Made by a program: the position numbers and the translations under genes
The notes under the pieces: generated by a model
Databases searched by the model: none
Told to the model about the DNA's origin: nothing
Seen by the model: only the letters and a program-made list of their open reading frames with translations
Assembly: GCF_001485535.1 (NCBI RefSeq)
Contig: NZ_BCMZ01000001.1
Span: forward strand, 992,001 to 1,056,000
Length of the DNA stretch: 64,000 bases
Direction: 5' to 3'
Source: Halobacterium sp. CBA1132
GTDB taxonomy: Archaea; Halobacteriota; Halobacteria; Halobacteriales; Halobacteriaceae
Shown: in pieces, positions 7,923 to 49,175 of the stretch
Position numbering within the stretch: the first letter of the stretch is position 1
Layout: each line of letters starts with the position of its first letter

Positions 7923-9427
7923 CGCTGCACCCCGTCGATGCCCGCAGCGAGGTCGTCGAACGCGCGCTGGAAGTCCAGCACGGTCGCGAACCGCGCGCGC
8001 TTCTCCGGCGCCAGCGCACGCGCGAACAGGTCGTCCGCCTCCTCCGGCAGCGCGGGGTTCCGCTCGGACGCGGGAATCCGCGTGTCGCGGCTGCCCGGCG
8101 GTTCACCCGTGAGCAGGAAGTACGCGAGCGCGCCCAGCCCGTAGACGTCCGTCGCTTGGTCGAAGCGCCCGTACGTCTCCGGGTCACGGTGCTCGGGCGC
8201 CGCGAACGCCCCCGGAATCGGCGGTGTCTGCCGCGCGCTCGCGGCGTGTGCGAACCCCCAGTCGCCCAGCAGCGGCGCGTCCCACGTCCGCGGGCCCGTC
8301 GCCACGAACCGCACCGCGCCCGGGTGGACGCCGCCGTGGACGACGCCCCGCGAGTGCGCGTGGCTGACGGCGCGCGTGAGGACGCTGGCGTCCCAGACGG
8401 CTTCCGCGAGCGTCGCCGGCGCACCGCGGCCCTCCAGCGTGTCGCCGTCGTCGTAGCGGGTCGCTAGCCACCGCGGCCCGTGCCCGAGGACGGCGACCAC
8501 GTGGTCGTGGTCGTCCACGCCCGCCCACTGCTCGACCGCGTCCGCGAACGCGGACGTGACCTCGCTCTCGTCGGCGTGCAGTCGACGGACCGTCGCCAGC
8601 CCGTGTTCGAGCACGTCCTCGTCGACGTCCGCCCGGTAGTCCGTCGTCAGCACGCCCGCCCGGAGTTTCATGTTCGGCGAGACGTCGTCGGCAGCCAGCG
8701 TCACTTCCGGTGGGTCCGGAATCTCCTTCGGGCGCCCTGCCTCGGTCTCCTCGCCCTCGCGTTCCTCGCTGTGGACGGGCGCGTTCTGCCCGAAGGAGAC
8801 GTGAATCGGCTGCGAGCGGTCGTCGTCGCCGCCCGTCTCGACCACGGAGACGCCGTCCGGGAAGAGGTCCGCGTACGCCGGATGCGAGCGCACGACCACC
8901 GGGTAGCCGGCGTCCTCGGCGCGCGCCGCGATGGCCGCGGTCACTTCCTCGACGGCCTGCTCGGCGTACCGCTTCACGAGCGCGTTCTCGGACTGCGTGA
9001 GCGCCGCGATTGCCGACAGGCCAGAAGAGGCCCGCGCCGGATAGGACTTCGTGACGCCCGCGACCGCGACCACGGCGTTCTGCTGGACGAGCGGGTCCGA
9101 CGCCCGCGTCAGCGACACGAGGTCGGAGAACTGCACGGAGAGCGCGTCAGGCTGGCGCTCCGCGAGCTCCGCGAGCACCCACGTCGCGCCCCGTCGCACC
9201 CACACGTCGTCGTCCTCGACGGCGCCTCGAACGTCGTCGAGGACGGCGCGAACCCCCGTCGGGTCGGTGGTGACGGCGTCAACGAGGCGCCACGCGGCGC
9301 CCGCGCGCTCGTCGGCGTCGTCGCTGTGGAGTCGCGCTGCGAGCTCCTCGACGCCGTCGGCGTCGACCGACCGCCGGAGCGCCGCAATCCGCTCCTCGTC
9401 GACCGAGCCGTCAGTGTGGCGGTCCAT
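7919..9427 (-). CDS. HEAT-repeat protein with C-terminal Ser/Thr kinase-like domain (probable pseudokinase)
   Basis: A 502-residue protein. Residues about 10-170 are alpha-helical repeats of HEAT type (paired helices ending in VRRGATWVLAEL and LVQQNAVVAVAGV). Residues about 290-495 follow the eukaryote-like kinase fold: HSRGVVHGGVHPGAVRF stands where HRDLKPxN is expected, GDWG at the DFG position, AAPEH at APE, and a DVYGLGALAYFLLTG helix. The catalytic-loop Asp and Lys are replaced, so phosphotransfer is doubtful. The start is the ATG at 9427, just outside the divergent glycerate kinase promoter; a longer open frame upstream is antisense to that gene. It is coupled to the downstream membrane protein. 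Confidence 0.85.
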   Translation of the reverse strand: MDRHTDGSVDEERIAALRRSVDADGVEELAARLHSDDADERAGAAWRLVDAVTTDPTGVRAVLDDVRGAVEDDDVWVRRGATWVLAELAERQPDALSVQFSDLVSLTRASDPLVQQNAVVAVAGVTKSYPARASSGLSAIAALTQSENALVKRYAEQAVEEVTAAIAARAEDAGYPVVVRSHPAYADLFPDGVSVVETGGDDDRSQPIHVSFGQNAPVHSEEREGEETEAGRPKEIPDPPEVTLAADDVSPNMKLRAGVLTTDYRADVDEDVLEHGLATVRRLHADESEVTSAFADAVEQWAGVDDHDHVVAVLGHGPRWLATRYDDGDTLEGRGAPATLAEAVWDASVLTRAVSHAHSRGVVHGGVHPGAVRFVATGPRTWDAPLLGDWGFAHAASARQTPPIPGAFAAPEHRDPETYGRFDQATDVYGLGALAYFLLTGEPPGSRDTRIPASERNPALPEEADDLFARALAPEKRARFATVLDFQRAFDDLAAGIDGVQR

Positions 9428-43440: not shown

Positions 43441-44271
43441 ATGTTCGAATTCATCAACGACGAGGAAGCACGCGGTCAGGTGGGGATCGGGACGCTCATC
43501 GTGTTCATCGCGATGGTCCTAGTCGCCGCAATCGCCGCCGGCGTCCTCATCAACACCGCGGGTGTCCTCCAGACGCAAGCCGAGGACACCGGCCAAGACA
43601 GTACCGACCAGGTCGCAAACAACGTCAACATCATCGGCGCAGTCGGTGATGTTGCGAACGCGAGTGCAACTGATACTGCGATCGTCAACGCTAGCAACAA
43701 TATTTCCGACTTCAACACAGAACTTAGTGACTCGGAGGTCCACACGCTCCGCTTGACCGTCCAGAAGTCGCCCGGCGCGGGTGACATCGATCTCTCCGGG
43801 CTGAGCATCCAGTACGTCGGCGGGGATTCCTTCGCGAACCTAATCCACCACACCCAGGCGAAAGCCCCTGCGATCAACGCATCCGATAGCTTCTCTGACG
43901 GGCCGTGGGTGAAGGGTGAAGGCACTGCTGCGTACTTCGTACAAGCGATTACGGCGGACACGGAGACGGACACGGTGATGACAAGCGAGAGCGACCGCTA
44001 CGAGATCGTCATCCCGCTCCAGCAGGTCTACAACTCGAGTGCTGCTATCAGTTCTGGTTCTAAAGCAGCGGGCCAATACATTGAAAGCGTCGAGCAGATT
44101 AATGACTCGGCCTCGAATTATCAGGGCTACGACAACAGCGACCTTGGCCTCCTCGAGGAGAGCGAAAACGTCGAACTAACGATTACCACGGAATCCGGTT
44201 CGCAGCGGTACGCGAATCTGCAGGTTCCTGACTCCCTCATCGGTGAGGGTGGCAGCTCGGTGCAACTCTAA
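43441..44271 (+). CDS. arlA1: Archaellin (major archaellum filament protein), first copy
   Basis: A 276-residue class III signal-peptide protein. The short N-terminus [22 protein letters not shown] (in part) has the ArlK/PibD prepilin peptidase site after ARG, followed by the hydrophobic helix that packs the filament core. The C-terminal ends are beta-rich ([37 protein letters not shown]). About six N-x-S/T sequons suggest glycosylation. It is followed after 9 bp by a second archaellin. In the first 180 nt the two copies differ at only six positions, all silent. Confidence 0.96.
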
Positions 44272-44280
44272 TCCAGAATA

Positions 44281-45087
44281 ATGTTTGAATTCATCAACGA
44301 CGAGGAAGCACGCGGTCAGGTGGGGATTGGGACGCTCATCGTGTTCATCGCGATGGTCCTAGTCGCCGCAATCGCCGCCGGCGTCCTCATCAACACCGCA
44401 GGTGTCCTCCAGACGCAGGCCGAGGACACCGGACAGGACAGTACCGACCAGGTCGCAAACAACATCAATATCATCGGCGCTGTCGGTGATATTGCCAATA
44501 CATCCGGAACGACACAAATCGTCGCCAATACGACTGATCAGTCCACTGTACAGAATTTCACGGACTTCAATAATACAACCGATACGCCGAAGGCTCACAC
44601 TATCCGGCTGGCCGTTCAGAAGTCACCGGGAGCCAGCGACATTGACCTCTCGGGACTGAGCATTCAGTACGTCGGTGGGGATTCCTTCGCGAACCTCGTC
44701 CATGCAAGTGAGGCTGAGGCACCGATTACCGTAGACAATACTGGAAGCCCAGACCAAATTAAAGCAGACGGGAACGGTGAACCCGGTTACTTCGTCGGGA
44801 AGATTACTGCAGAAAGTGACGACACGGTGATGACCTCCGAAAGCGATCGATACGAGATCATCATCCCGCTTCAGCAGGCCTACAATAATACTGGGAATGG
44901 GGTCGGCCAGCCTGTTGCTGGTGCCCTCGATTCCAGTGGGACGTACGACAACAGCCAACTCGGGCTCCTCAGTGAGAGCGCGAACGTTGAACTGACGATT
45001 ACGACGGAATCCGGCTCGCAGCGCTACGCGAACCTGCAGATCCCTGACTCGCTCGTTGGCGATGAAGGCAGCACGGTTCCGCTGTAA
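44281..45087 (+). CDS. arlA2: Archaellin, second tandem copy
   Basis: A 268-residue archaellin with the same signal peptide and core helix as the first copy and a matching C-terminal domain ending [11 protein letters not shown]. The central surface-exposed part (about residues 60-100 and 150-235) differs strongly and is richer in Asn, Thr and A+T, with about six sequons. It is co-transcribed with the first copy; no ribosome-binding site is evident in the 9-bp gap. Confidence 0.96.
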
Positions 45088-45970: not shown

Positions 45971-47191
45971 GTGCCATCGCTGTACGGGCTCGAACGCTCC
46001 GGTGACGTCGAGAAGCTCGTCGAACTGCTCCGGGAGAGCGAGAAGGAGACGGTTCGGCGCCGCGCAGCCGAGATTCTGGGCAACCTCGACGAGCCGGAGT
46101 CGGAGGGGTTGGACGCGCTCGTGGAGGCGATGAGCGACGAGAACCCGGCAGTGCGTGCGACAGCCATCGACGCGCTCACGCAACAGGAAGCGGTCGAGGC
46201 CCTGATGAAGGGGCTTGGGCAGTCCGTCCCCGAGAGCGGGGCGACGTGGGCGCAGGCCGAGGCGTTCGTTGAGCGTCTGGGCGCCGACACCGTGGAACTG
46301 CGGATGGCGTCCGCGAACGTGCTGGGGCTGTTGGGCGTCGAGGACGCGGCGAAGCCGCTTGCTCAGCGACTGCAGGCAGAACCGCATCCGGAGGTCCGTG
46401 CGCGGATTGCGCGCGCGCTCGGTCGGGTCGGCGACCCCTCAGTCGCGGGCGTGCTCGTCGAACACTTAGACGGGCAGCCACTGGGGGTGCGCCGGGAGGC
46501 CGCCGAATCGCTCGGTCGGCTGAACGGTCCGACAGCCCTGCAGGGGCTGTTGCAGGTCGTCGACGACGACAGCGAGGAGATGCGCCGGACAGCGGTGAGT
46601 TCGCTCGGCCAGTTCGAGAACGCCAAGCCCGTCGACGCGCTCGTCGAGCGGTTGGGCGACGAGAGCGACTTGGTGCGTCGCGCGGCGGTGTTCTCGCTCA
46701 TCGAGATTCTGTCGAACGTCCCGCCGGACCGCAGCCACGAACTCCGGGAGACCATCGTCGACCGGATGGCCGCGCGAAGCGACCCCTCCATCGTGGCGTC
46801 GCTGGTGGAGATTATCGACGAGGGCACCCAGATTCACCAGCGCCGGAACGCGGTGTGGATGCTCGGTCGCGTCGCGGGCGACAAGTCGACGAAGATAGAC
46901 GCCGTGGAGGCGCTCCGTGACGTGCTCGGCGAGGACGACGAGCTCATCTCGCAGTTCGCGTCCACGGGGCTGGCGGAAATCGGCGGTCGGATGGTGGAGA
47001 CGGCGCTGCTGGAGGTCATCGAGACCGACGAGTACGGCGAGGACGCGGTCGCGATGGCGGCGTTCGCGCTCGGGAAGGTCGGCGGCGACCGCTCGCGCAA
47101 GCGCCTCGAGAAGCTCGTCGACGAGACGGAGAACGCGGAGGTGCGGCGGCGGGCGTTCTCCGCGATTTCGAAGCTCGGCGGCCACTCCTGA
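45971..47191 (+). CDS. HEAT/PBS-lyase repeat protein of the archaellum-chemotaxis island
   Basis: A 406-residue protein made almost wholly of HEAT-like helical repeats (RRRAAEILGNLDEP, NPAVRATAIDALTQQ, HPEVRARIARALGRVGDPSV, GVRREAAESLGRLNGPTAL and so on). From memory, H. salinarum has a HEAT-like protein (OE2401F) at this place that binds CheF and Che proteins. The start is probably the GTG at 45971, because the element cttatgcg at 45941 sits at TATA distance; an in-frame ATG at 45944 is the alternative. Confidence 0.85.
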   Translation: MPSLYGLERSGDVEKLVELLRESEKETVRRRAAEILGNLDEPESEGLDALVEAMSDENPAVRATAIDALTQQEAVEALMKGLGQSVPESGATWAQAEAFVERLGADTVELRMASANVLGLLGVEDAAKPLAQRLQAEPHPEVRARIARALGRVGDPSVAGVLVEHLDGQPLGVRREAAESLGRLNGPTALQGLLQVVDDDSEEMRRTAVSSLGQFENAKPVDALVERLGDESDLVRRAAVFSLIEILSNVPPDRSHELRETIVDRMAARSDPSIVASLVEIIDEGTQIHQRRNAVWMLGRVAGDKSTKIDAVEALRDVLGEDDELISQFASTGLAEIGGRMVETALLEVIETDEYGEDAVAMAAFALGKVGGDRSRKRLEKLVDETENAEVRRRAFSAISKLGGHS

Positions 47192-47251
47192 CGGGGCGTC
47201 GATGGGAGGGCGCCAGTCCCGTATCCCGATTTCAAATCCGAGAATCGCACG

Positions 47252-47262
47252 CAAAACGTTAT
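47252..47262 (+). promoter_or_regulatory. TATA box of the leader ORF-cheF unit
   Basis: acgttatatgc lies about 30 nt upstream of the ATG of the short leader ORF and over 100 nt upstream of cheF, so transcription should begin at or just before the leader ORF. Confidence 0.6.
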
Positions 47263-47291
47263 ATGCGCCAGCGGAATAAGTTCCGCAAGTA

Positions 47292-47369
47292 ATGAGTACG
47301 GACGCGTCGGGCAGGCAGACAAGCGACGGGGTCGGGACGCCCGCACGTCCGCTGGAGGAGGCGAAATGA
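47292..47369 (+). CDS. 25-codon leader ORF translationally coupled to cheF
   Basis: ATG AGT ACG at 47292 opens a 25-residue reading frame (MSTDASGRQTSDGV, ending PLEEAK) whose TGA overlaps the ATG of cheF as ATGA. The TATA box at 47252-47262 is spaced for a leaderless start at this ATG. Translation of cheF may thus depend on ribosomes loaded on the leader. Whether the peptide itself has a function is unknown. Confidence 0.5.
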   Translation: MSTDASGRQTSDGVGTPARPLEEAK

Positions 47370-48235
47370 GCGAGTCCGAGTACAAGATAGCCGACGGCGC
47401 GGGTAAGTTCCTGCAGGCGGTCAAGGAGGGGCGCCGGATGAAGGACGCCGAGTGGACGAACGGCCGCATCCTCTTGTCGAACAAGCGCGTCGTCCTCGCG
47501 GGCAACGACGGGAAGCGGAGTCTCCCGCTGTCGGACGTGTCGGGACTGAGCGGCCGCCACGACGTCAATCAGACGGTCGCGAAGGTCAGCGACTACGTGA
47601 GCATTCGGATGAGCTCCGAGAGCGTCGTGTTGATCTCGATGGGGGAGAACACCGAGCAGTTCGAGACCAAACTCTACGGCGCGTTGCTCGACCAGACGGA
47701 ACTGCTGGTAAAACACCCGGCGGTGAAAGGCGGGGTCGTGCAAGACGAGTCCTTCGAGCGCGCGCGAATCAAAGTCGACGACGAACAGTTGAGCGTCGCG
47801 ATGCAGAACGGGTCGTTCGTCTCCGTGGACCTCGACGACGTCGGTTCCGCCGAGGCCGCCTCCTTGGACGTGCAAGGCGAGAAGAGCCCCGTGCTGAAAG
47901 TCGAGCACACCGTCGAGGACACGAGCGTGCAGACGTACTTCTCCAGTGACTCGCACACGTGTTCGATTCTGGAGTCGCTGCTGACGAAGGAAGCCGAGAA
48001 GAGTCAGGGGTCGGTGGAGCTCTCCGAGACGGAGAAGCGCGTGCTGATGGCGGTGTACTCGGGGGTGTCGTCGTTCGAGATTCCGGACTTCCTCGGGATG
48101 GACGTCGACGAAGTCGAGTCCATCTTCGACCGGCTCATCGAAGTCGACGTGCTCGAAGAGGTGCGCAAGCGCCGCGAGGTCACGATGAAGACCCGTGGCC
48201 GCAACATCGCCAGCGAAGCAATCAACGAGGAGTAG
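47366..48235 (+). CDS. cheF: Chemotaxis-archaellum adaptor CheF
   Basis: A 289-residue member of the DUF439 family. CheF proteins in H. salinarum link CheY and other Che proteins to the archaellum switch. Seen are an N-terminal PH-like beta region (GRILLSNKRVVLAGNDGKRSLPLSDVSGL in part), LLVKHPAVKGGVVQDESFERARI, and a C-terminal winged-helix-like part (LMAVYSGVSSFEIPDFLGMDVDEVESIFDRL in part). It is the first of two paralogues, here convergent to the second. The start overlaps the leader ORF. Confidence 0.9.
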   Translation: MSESEYKIADGAGKFLQAVKEGRRMKDAEWTNGRILLSNKRVVLAGNDGKRSLPLSDVSGLSGRHDVNQTVAKVSDYVSIRMSSESVVLISMGENTEQFETKLYGALLDQTELLVKHPAVKGGVVQDESFERARIKVDDEQLSVAMQNGSFVSVDLDDVGSAEAASLDVQGEKSPVLKVEHTVEDTSVQTYFSSDSHTCSILESLLTKEAEKSQGSVELSETEKRVLMAVYSGVSSFEIPDFLGMDVDEVESIFDRLIEVDVLEEVRKRREVTMKTRGRNIASEAINEE

Positions 48236-48264: not shown

Positions 48265-48350
48265 CCGGCTACATATTGACGTCTTCGATGTGTTCGCTGA
48301 CAGCGGCCCGGCTACATATTGACGTCTTCGATGTGTTCGCTGACAGCGGC
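48265..48350. repeat. Perfect 43-bp tandem duplication at the end of the second cheF
   Basis: Positions 48265-48307 and 48308-48350 are identical over 43 bp. The second copy contains the last twelve or so codons and stop of the minus-strand cheF; the first lies just beyond its stop. A further 5 bp (ccggc) continue the match. Since 43 is not a multiple of three and the extra copy lies after the stop, the protein is unchanged. Confidence 0.9.
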
Positions 48351-49175
48351 CCGGCCCATCGACGTGAGGTGGACGCCGTCGTCGTCGCGGACGAGTGCTT
48401 TCTCGATGAGGTCGTTGAGGAACATCGTGAGCTGGCTCGCGTCGACGCCGAGGACGGTCGCGAGGTCGGCGTTCGAGCCGCCGGAGTAGATGGCGATCAG
48501 CGCTTCGATTTCCTCGTCGGTGAGTTCGACGTCCGCCAGTTCCTGCTTGAGTTTCGTGTACCGCAGGCGGATGAACCGCCCGAGGAGGTTCATCTCCCGC
48601 CCGGAGTCGAGCGCGATTTCGGTGGTCACGGCGCCGGTCGCCCCCATGTGGCGCACGGAGAGCAGTTGGCGCGTGCTCCCGCCGAGTTCGCGCTCGACGC
48701 GCTCGAAGTGCGTGACCGTGGAGACGTCGATTTCGGTGGCGGCGTCCCCTCGGAGTTCGACAGTGCCCGGTGAGACGGCCAGTTTCGCCGATTCGAAGGG
48801 CTGGTCGGTGATTCGGCCGCCGCGGCGCGCGGGGTGTTTGACGTGGGCCGCCGACCCGTTCAGCAAGCCCTTGAACACGAGGATGACGAATCGTTCGACG
48901 GTGTCGCCGGCGCCCTCGATGACGGCGACGTGGCGCTCGCCGTCGCGCTCGTAGGCGACGGTGACGGTGTCGTCGAAGAACTCCGCGAGGTCGCCGGGCG
49001 CGGTGTCGTGTTGGACGTCGAAGACGCCCTTGAGGGGAATGGTGATGCGGTCGCTGTCGGTCGCGAGTACGATGCGGCGCTTGCTCATCACGACGCGCCC
49101 GCGCACGGGTTCGGCGTGCGTGGCCGTGTCGGGAATGAACGACGTGACGAAGTCCGCGATAGCTGATTCCGACAT
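48312..49175 (-). CDS. cheF2: Chemotaxis-archaellum adaptor CheF, second paralogue
   Basis: A 287-residue paralogue of the upstream CheF with the same layout: GRVVMSKRRIVLATDSDRITIPLKGVFDV (in part), HVKHPARRGGRITDQPFESAKL, and C-terminal LIAIYSGGSNADLATVLGVDASQLTMFLNDL (in part). It heads the minus-strand side that faces the che operon and presumably also bridges CheY and the ArlCDE ring. It ends inside a 43-bp tandem duplication. Confidence 0.9.
   Translation of the reverse strand: MSESAIADFVTSFIPDTATHAEPVRGRVVMSKRRIVLATDSDRITIPLKGVFDVQHDTAPGDLAEFFDDTVTVAYERDGERHVAVIEGAGDTVERFVILVFKGLLNGSAAHVKHPARRGGRITDQPFESAKLAVSPGTVELRGDAATEIDVSTVTHFERVERELGGSTRQLLSVRHMGATGAVTTEIALDSGREMNLLGRFIRLRYTKLKQELADVELTDEEIEALIAIYSGGSNADLATVLGVDASQLTMFLNDLIEKALVRDDDGVHLTSMGRAAVSEHIEDVNM

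Follow-up and report, generated by a model that had tools for sequence, protein, structure and literature searches.

A small reading frame upstream of cheF in Halobacterium, kept in start, frame and stop, as a probable leaderless loader of ribosomes

Leaderless initiation is usual in haloarchaea, where most mRNAs start without a leader; the question raised by the cheF1 locus of Halobacterium sp. CBA1132 is what a small open reading frame (mini-ORF), wedged between a TATA box and cheF1 and overlapping the start of that gene with its stop codon, might be kept for. The window, that is, the whole stretch of DNA analysed (64,000 nucleotides), contains in this order two archaellin genes, a HEAT-repeat gene, cheF1, a convergent second cheF gene (cheF2), and cheR (Table 1). 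CheF is the link between CheY and the archaellum. In H. salinarum, taxis requires both the HEAT protein OE2401F and CheF1 (OE2402F), which interact with each other (PMC2666748); judged by position and family, the HEAT-repeat gene of the window is the counterpart of OE2401F.

Table 1. Features of the cheF1 region, in coordinates of the window
Feature	Position	Strand	Basis or remark
Archaellin genes, two	43441-44271, 44281-45087		Pfam Arch_flagellin
HEAT-repeat gene 5′ of cheF1	45971-47191	+	Pfam HEAT_2, E 4e-53; gene-finder start, start codon uncertain
Conserved block GAGAATCGCACGCAAAAC, immediately preceding the TATA box	47240-47257	+	BRE and/or regulator site
TATA box TTATATG	47259-47265	+	sequence
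Mini-ORF (putative loader), 25 sense codons + TGA, peptide MSTDASGRQTSDGVGTPARPLEEAK	47292-47369	+	sequence, frame conservation
Mini-ORF start codon ATG	47292-47294	+	
Shine-Dalgarno-like AGGAGG, within the mini-ORF, 4 nt 5′ of the cheF ATG	47356-47361	+	
ATGA stop/start overlap	47366-47369	+	sequence
cheF start codon ATG	47366-47368	+	
Mini-ORF stop codon TGA	47367-47369	+	
cheF1 (PF04283, CheF-arch)	47366-48235	+	Pfam E 6.6e-73
cheF2, convergent second cheF	48312-49175	minus	
cheR		minus	beyond cheF2

The HEAT stop codon and cheF1 are 174 nt apart, and this spacing contains the conserved block, the TATA box, and the mini-ORF. The original prediction had described the TATA box, the 25-codon ORF, and the TGA overlapping the cheF ATG, and this description proved exact; the AGGAGG was not mentioned in it. 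From the first T of the TATA box to the mini-ORF ATG there are 33 nt; with transcription starting some 26-30 nt past the box, as the geometry suggests, the leader would be about 0-5 nt long and the mRNA near-leaderless. The distance is 1-5 nt above the commonest value in the window's genome, which favors a leader of a few nucleotides over a start that is strictly leaderless. At the other end, the overlap of 4 nt lies within the -8 to +10 nt range of haloarchaeal termination-reinitiation pairs, and the AGGAGG at 4 nt spacing resembles the Shine-Dalgarno (SD) sequence expected of such a pair. The ATGA by itself is weak evidence for coupling, because the second codon of cheF, AGC, makes any open ORF in that frame end there. 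In size, the 25 codons fall within the 5-50 codons of mycobacterial coupled small ORFs; the peptide matched no Pfam family. An N-terminal extension of CheF was considered and rejected: in the window, the frame of cheF stays open 5′ of the gene but offers no start codon there. No comparable mini-ORF is seen by eye at cheF2, the second copy in the window. The 3′ end of cheF2, also by eye, is tandemly duplicated past its stop codon with a period of approximately 43 nt (48270-48355); the duplication sits between the two cheF genes.

A CheF match was present in 18 of the 26 genomes surveyed within the family; the 17 full-length ones were examined, and G021, with a partial match, was left out. In all 17, an ATG occupies the corresponding position downstream of the TATA box, always in the frame ending at ATGA; the TATA-like box stands about 31-33 nt before this ATG (the transcription start being placed by geometry only), and the RTGA overlap with the downstream gene is present in 17 of 17. 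H. salinarum has the same arrangement (locus L007). The mini-ORF ATG is at -74 relative to cheF in 11 genomes, at -71 in four, and at -101 in two, so that, counted from the TATA-proximal ATG, the mini-ORFs comprise 24-34 codons throughout; the differences in length among family members are multiples of three. The frame contains no stop codon in any of the 17 genomes, versus 19 and 9 in the other two frames, 15 of those 19 being supplied by the start ATGA, which contains a TGA. Relative to G010, G011 carries two compensating single-base indels (+1 and -1), which scramble the peptide and restore the frame.

The peptide is conserved less than this linkage. Its first residues, MS, are common to the 13 Halobacterium genomes and the remainder diverges; among the five close species compared, there are no conserved codons, no conserved residue run, and no conserved peptide. 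Changes at codon positions 1/2/3 number 24/57/47 in the mini-ORF versus 4/0/51 in the first 24 codons of cheF (sums over the 10 pairs of these five species, which are non-independent), and the mini-ORF evolves at about the rate of cheF third positions. Conservation of the leader, proposed as a check by the original prediction, is thus found for the frame (17 of 17) and not for the peptide. Judged from these alignments, start, frame, and stop are kept in a constant anatomy, and selection on the peptide is not apparent.

Could a chance ORF have been kept open in this way? In such a scenario, the mini-ORF would be a neutral part of an ordinary 5′-nontranslated region of approximately 76 nt, and cheF would be started directly by its own SD. 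A match of at least 5 nt to AGGAGGTGATCC does precede cheF in 11 of the 17 genomes (4 nt in G010 and G011, just 3 nt in G009, G001, G013, and G014), a 25-codon open frame is nothing unusual at such a high G+C content, and the unconserved peptide fits as well. However, start and frame have been kept in 17 of 17 genomes despite in-frame length changes and the compensated frameshift, and in neutral simulations a 24-codon frame survived uninterrupted at each of the 17 tips in 0.15% of the 4000 runs made without indels and in 0 of 4000 with indels, that is, at a frequency of 0.0015 or less at the full neutral rate. At half that rate the values are 1.2% without indels and none with indels, and at a quarter 7.4% without and 0.7% or none with indels; the simulation tree is scaled to cheF third positions (total length 9.45), the ATG is taken as given, and distant genera are treated as homologous. 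Moreover, haloarchaea use the SD for reinitiation at overlaps and seldom de novo, as far as reported in PMC6728339. A chance ORF is, on balance, unlikely.

The promoter region, too, has been retained. In the aligned upstream regions of Halobacterium, the block GAGAATYGCACGCAAARC (47240-47257) hardly varies (13 of 13); it is the sole exact copy in the window, where one other match, with 3 mismatches, lies at 9126-9143. The block is more invariant than a BRE would need and is possibly a regulator site. Directly before cheF, no TATA-like box is found in 17 of 17 genomes (the TATA matrix scores below zero for TTAAATA variants, to which the A+T count gives 8 of 8). A separate cheF promoter inside the mini-ORF was rejected, as none was seen in these 17 genomes; a transcription start between the leader ATG and cheF, which the original prediction had named as the observation that would speak against it, is therefore not indicated.

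The arrangement is probably best explained by a leaderless mini-ORF that delivers terminating ribosomes to cheF by termination-reinitiation and whose peptide is irrelevant. Transcription from the TATA box would give an mRNA whose 5′ end coincides with the mini-ORF ATG or precedes it by a few nucleotides; leaderless initiation would take ribosomes into the mini-ORF, where they would translate 24-34 arbitrary codons, terminate at the TGA within the ATGA, and reinitiate at the cheF ATG, with the SD-like sequence holding the terminating ribosomes for this purpose. A quantitative effect of the mini-ORF on CheF would be expected from such a route. In Haloferax, coupling is reported to be nearly lost beyond about 20 nt (PMC10666635), and the idea of a short ORF delivering a ribosome is named in a review (PMC12548453). 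Of the interpretation given in the original prediction, the leaderless start and the coupling through ATGA are supported by frame, promoter geometry, and overlap in all 17 genomes; the attenuator-like control that it also proposed is not (see below).

If cheF is fed by reinitiation in the family, the question arises how its start is served elsewhere. Beyond the family, 80 further genomes of the order were surveyed, hand-chosen for genus spread from the 145 with a match among 243 searched; gene starts in this survey were set mechanically and are imprecise. In 31 of the 80, the end of the HEAT gene falls at the cheF start or directly beside it (0 to +4), and the value is +4 in each of the 13 f6 genomes sampled. 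In 18 genomes the pair is gapped, with the HEAT stop 37-123 nt upstream, and in 16 of these 18 the gap is bridged by a relay mini-ORF of 14-40 codons, whose start lies on the HEAT stop (as ATGA, GTGA, or TAGTG) and whose end falls at -6 to +8 relative to cheF. Within genus g25, the overlap is direct in G166 and a relay is present in G098, G150, and G064. In G242 (locus L101) the C-terminal tail of HEAT is apparently duplicated past its stop, which may show the birth of a relay mini-ORF; the HEAT stop can be read at two places there, the relay ending, by eye, at the same point either way.

Applied to control pairs of co-directional genes separated by 20-130 nt, the same test gave relays in 15 of 294 (10 of 186 from two Halobacterium genomes and the window, 5 of 108 from four relay-bearing genomes). 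The difference between HEAT-cheF pairs and controls has a Fisher probability of 1.6e-16, relatedness being ignored in this value; the 18 pairs span 11 genera. Given gap length and start codon, shuffling leads one to expect 7.6 HEAT-cheF relays of 17. Among the Halobacterium controls, 10 relays were observed and 9.8 expected from shuffles given the start codon; relays are therefore not in general excess there, and the excess is one of HEAT-cheF.

Other upstream genes can take the place of HEAT. In genus g17 (judged to be Halorussus), the gene preceding cheF is not HEAT, and the first ATG past the stop of that gene opens a mini-ORF that ends close to the cheF start in 15 of 16 readable genomes, a 17th, G141, being left out of the count; these mini-ORFs end at +4 (10 genomes), -9 (four), or -3 (one), and one further at +17. 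In five f3 genomes, a CheR-like gene (so called from the resemblance of its tail to the CheR of the window, without a family search) ends 3-9 nt before cheF. The other 11 of the 80 show no coupling or are unclear (two gapped pairs without relay, four f11 genomes, and five others). Of the family members outside Halobacterium, of which there are four, three (G020, G022, and G013) have an ORF that begins 0-12 nt past the HEAT stop and either runs up to the ATG of the mini-ORF or is in the same frame as it; possibly, the leaderless mini-ORF originated inside a relay.

SD-like matches of at least 5 nt are found in 27 of the 31 genomes with HEAT overlap and in five of five with an adjacent cheR, and in none of the 13 of 80 cheF genes without a coupled ORF or with an unclear one. 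Such matches are present in 5 of 16 HEAT relays (absent in 11) and in 0 of 15 Halorussus relays; within 8 of the 16 HEAT relays, several of them among the 11 lacking the match, lies an A+T-rich box 24-50 nt before cheF. Where a relay lacks the SD and has an A+T-rich box, cheF could have a start of its own, and its relay could be a relic. The case is strongest for the 17 family members and for the five relays that have an SD.

The relays bear on a second scenario, in which the mini-ORF is a device for continuity of translation: ribosomes covering the 5′ end of the RNA would avert early termination of transcription (polarity, FttA), and reinitiation would be secondary. Relay ORFs filling the HEAT-cheF gaps would serve this end too, and FttA polarity in Archaea is called likely in a review (PMC12548453); however, continuity would call for neither a stop codon few bases from where cheF starts nor an SD-like sequence at that point; the locus has both, and we consider continuity a rather improbable main function. 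Leader peptides of bacteria resemble the mini-ORF in position and length, which would favor an attenuator or sensing leader, with codon-specific stalling of ribosomes or a structural switch controlling cheF, as the original prediction suggested. Yet neither a run of residues nor a codon is conserved in the mini-ORF, changes occur at all three codon positions, and the RNA folds no better than its shuffles in four of four species folded (z 0.28 to 0.76), which makes such control very improbable. A functional microprotein overlapping cheF by accident has the common MS start of the 13 Halobacterium genomes in its favor and is scarcely credible, as the rest of the peptide diverges, position-2 changes are as frequent as position-3 changes, and a Pfam match is absent.

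With a ribosome-loading mini-ORF as the preferred reading, the family and its relatives can be viewed together. The cheF start would have been kept as one of the reinitiation type: in most other haloarchaea examined it would be fed by the HEAT gene or a relay mini-ORF, and by the leaderless mini-ORF in the family, whose cheF has a promoter of its own. That reinitiation has served cheF through much of haloarchaeal history, bridged by a relay or a leaderless loader where needed, is a tentative proposal, to which we give somewhat less than an even chance. The scenario would explain why a gene with its own promoter retains a reinitiation-type start where most mRNAs start leaderless. Since OE2401F and OE2402F interact and are both needed for taxis, the HEAT:CheF ratio may be what coupling protects. 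If the reading is true, contentless mini-ORFs, selected for start, frame, and stop alone and too short for automatic annotation, are a distinct expression element of haloarchaea; comparison of the locus among species would then speak for upstream mini-ORFs being retained in archaea because they are translated, irrespective of the peptide.

Small ORFs preceded by a TATA box peak genome-wide at the ATGA position (11 of the 21 listed lie within -30 to +40), but this peak was set aside as evidence because any open ORF in that frame ends at ATGA wherever the gene begins with ATGA. In a fairer comparison of frames, 93 crossing ORFs are in the ATGA frame versus 33 in the other, and 14 versus 4 if preceded by a TATA box, an excess to which genuine small genes and misplaced gene starts contribute. 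Several other small ORFs were noted in passing. A further coupled small ORF, of 36 codons, TATA-preceded and starting MHAGRRARRGIGTER (L114:19501-19608 in G000, the genome of the window; before L134:18185-18706, minus strand, in G005), has a conserved peptide and ends 4 or 8 nt into the next gene, which has an ACT domain in the G005 copy. Relay mini-ORFs lie 5′ of L115:15868-16263, L111:9243-10424, and L119:6158-7144 (all minus strand) and of their G005 counterparts, leading in both G000 and G005 from the stop of the upstream gene to the ATGA of genes for DUF5611, a PHO4 transporter, and an Mrr-type protein. Finally, 5′ of L123:9219-9641 (minus strand, G000) there is a 52-codon gene for a small Cys-rich protein, zinc-ribbon-like by eye, with its own TATA box and an ATGA overlap with an Hsp20 gene; it is conserved in G005.

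The closest published kind is that of the mycobacterial coupled leaderless small ORFs (Shell et al. 2015, PMC4633059), which share with the cheF mini-ORF the size of 5-50 codons and the RTGA overlap with the next gene and have the leaderless start that is predicted for it; they include a case in which the peptide is not conserved and the leaderless start and coupling are. They are bacterial and known from mapped starts and footprints, whereas the present case is archaeal, has a TATA promoter, and is drawn from sequence comparison in 17 genomes. Haloarchaeal termination-reinitiation (Huber et al. 2019, 2023; PMC6728339, PMC10666635) involves the same 4-nt ATGA overlap and an SD-like sequence, and the HEAT-cheF pairs of 31 of the 80 other haloarchaea stand in the same relation as the overlapping gene pairs reported there; those pairs are full-length protein genes, whereas cheF1 is preceded by a mini-ORF whose peptide shows no sign of constraint. 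The upstream ORFs of Haloferax volcanii (PMC4983044) are likewise small (15-31 amino acids, in 16 of 97 long leaders) and precede ordinary genes, but neither a stop/start overlap nor conservation of the frame apart from the peptide is described in the available portion of that paper. In the leaderless bicistronic design for Corynebacterium (PMC10367133), a leaderless fore-cistron and an SD likewise feed a second cistron, and both the fore-cistron start and the SD are needed for expression; unlike the cheF mini-ORF, this is an engineered construct. A mini-ORF before cheF, or relay mini-ORFs of haloarchaea, were not found described in the open-licence PMC literature as far as it was covered, which does not prove their absence. 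As the mycobacterial ORFs have the same anatomy, loss of peptide conservation included, the kind is already known; what is new, within the literature searched, is a multi-species archaeal case and the form of a relay between HEAT and cheF.
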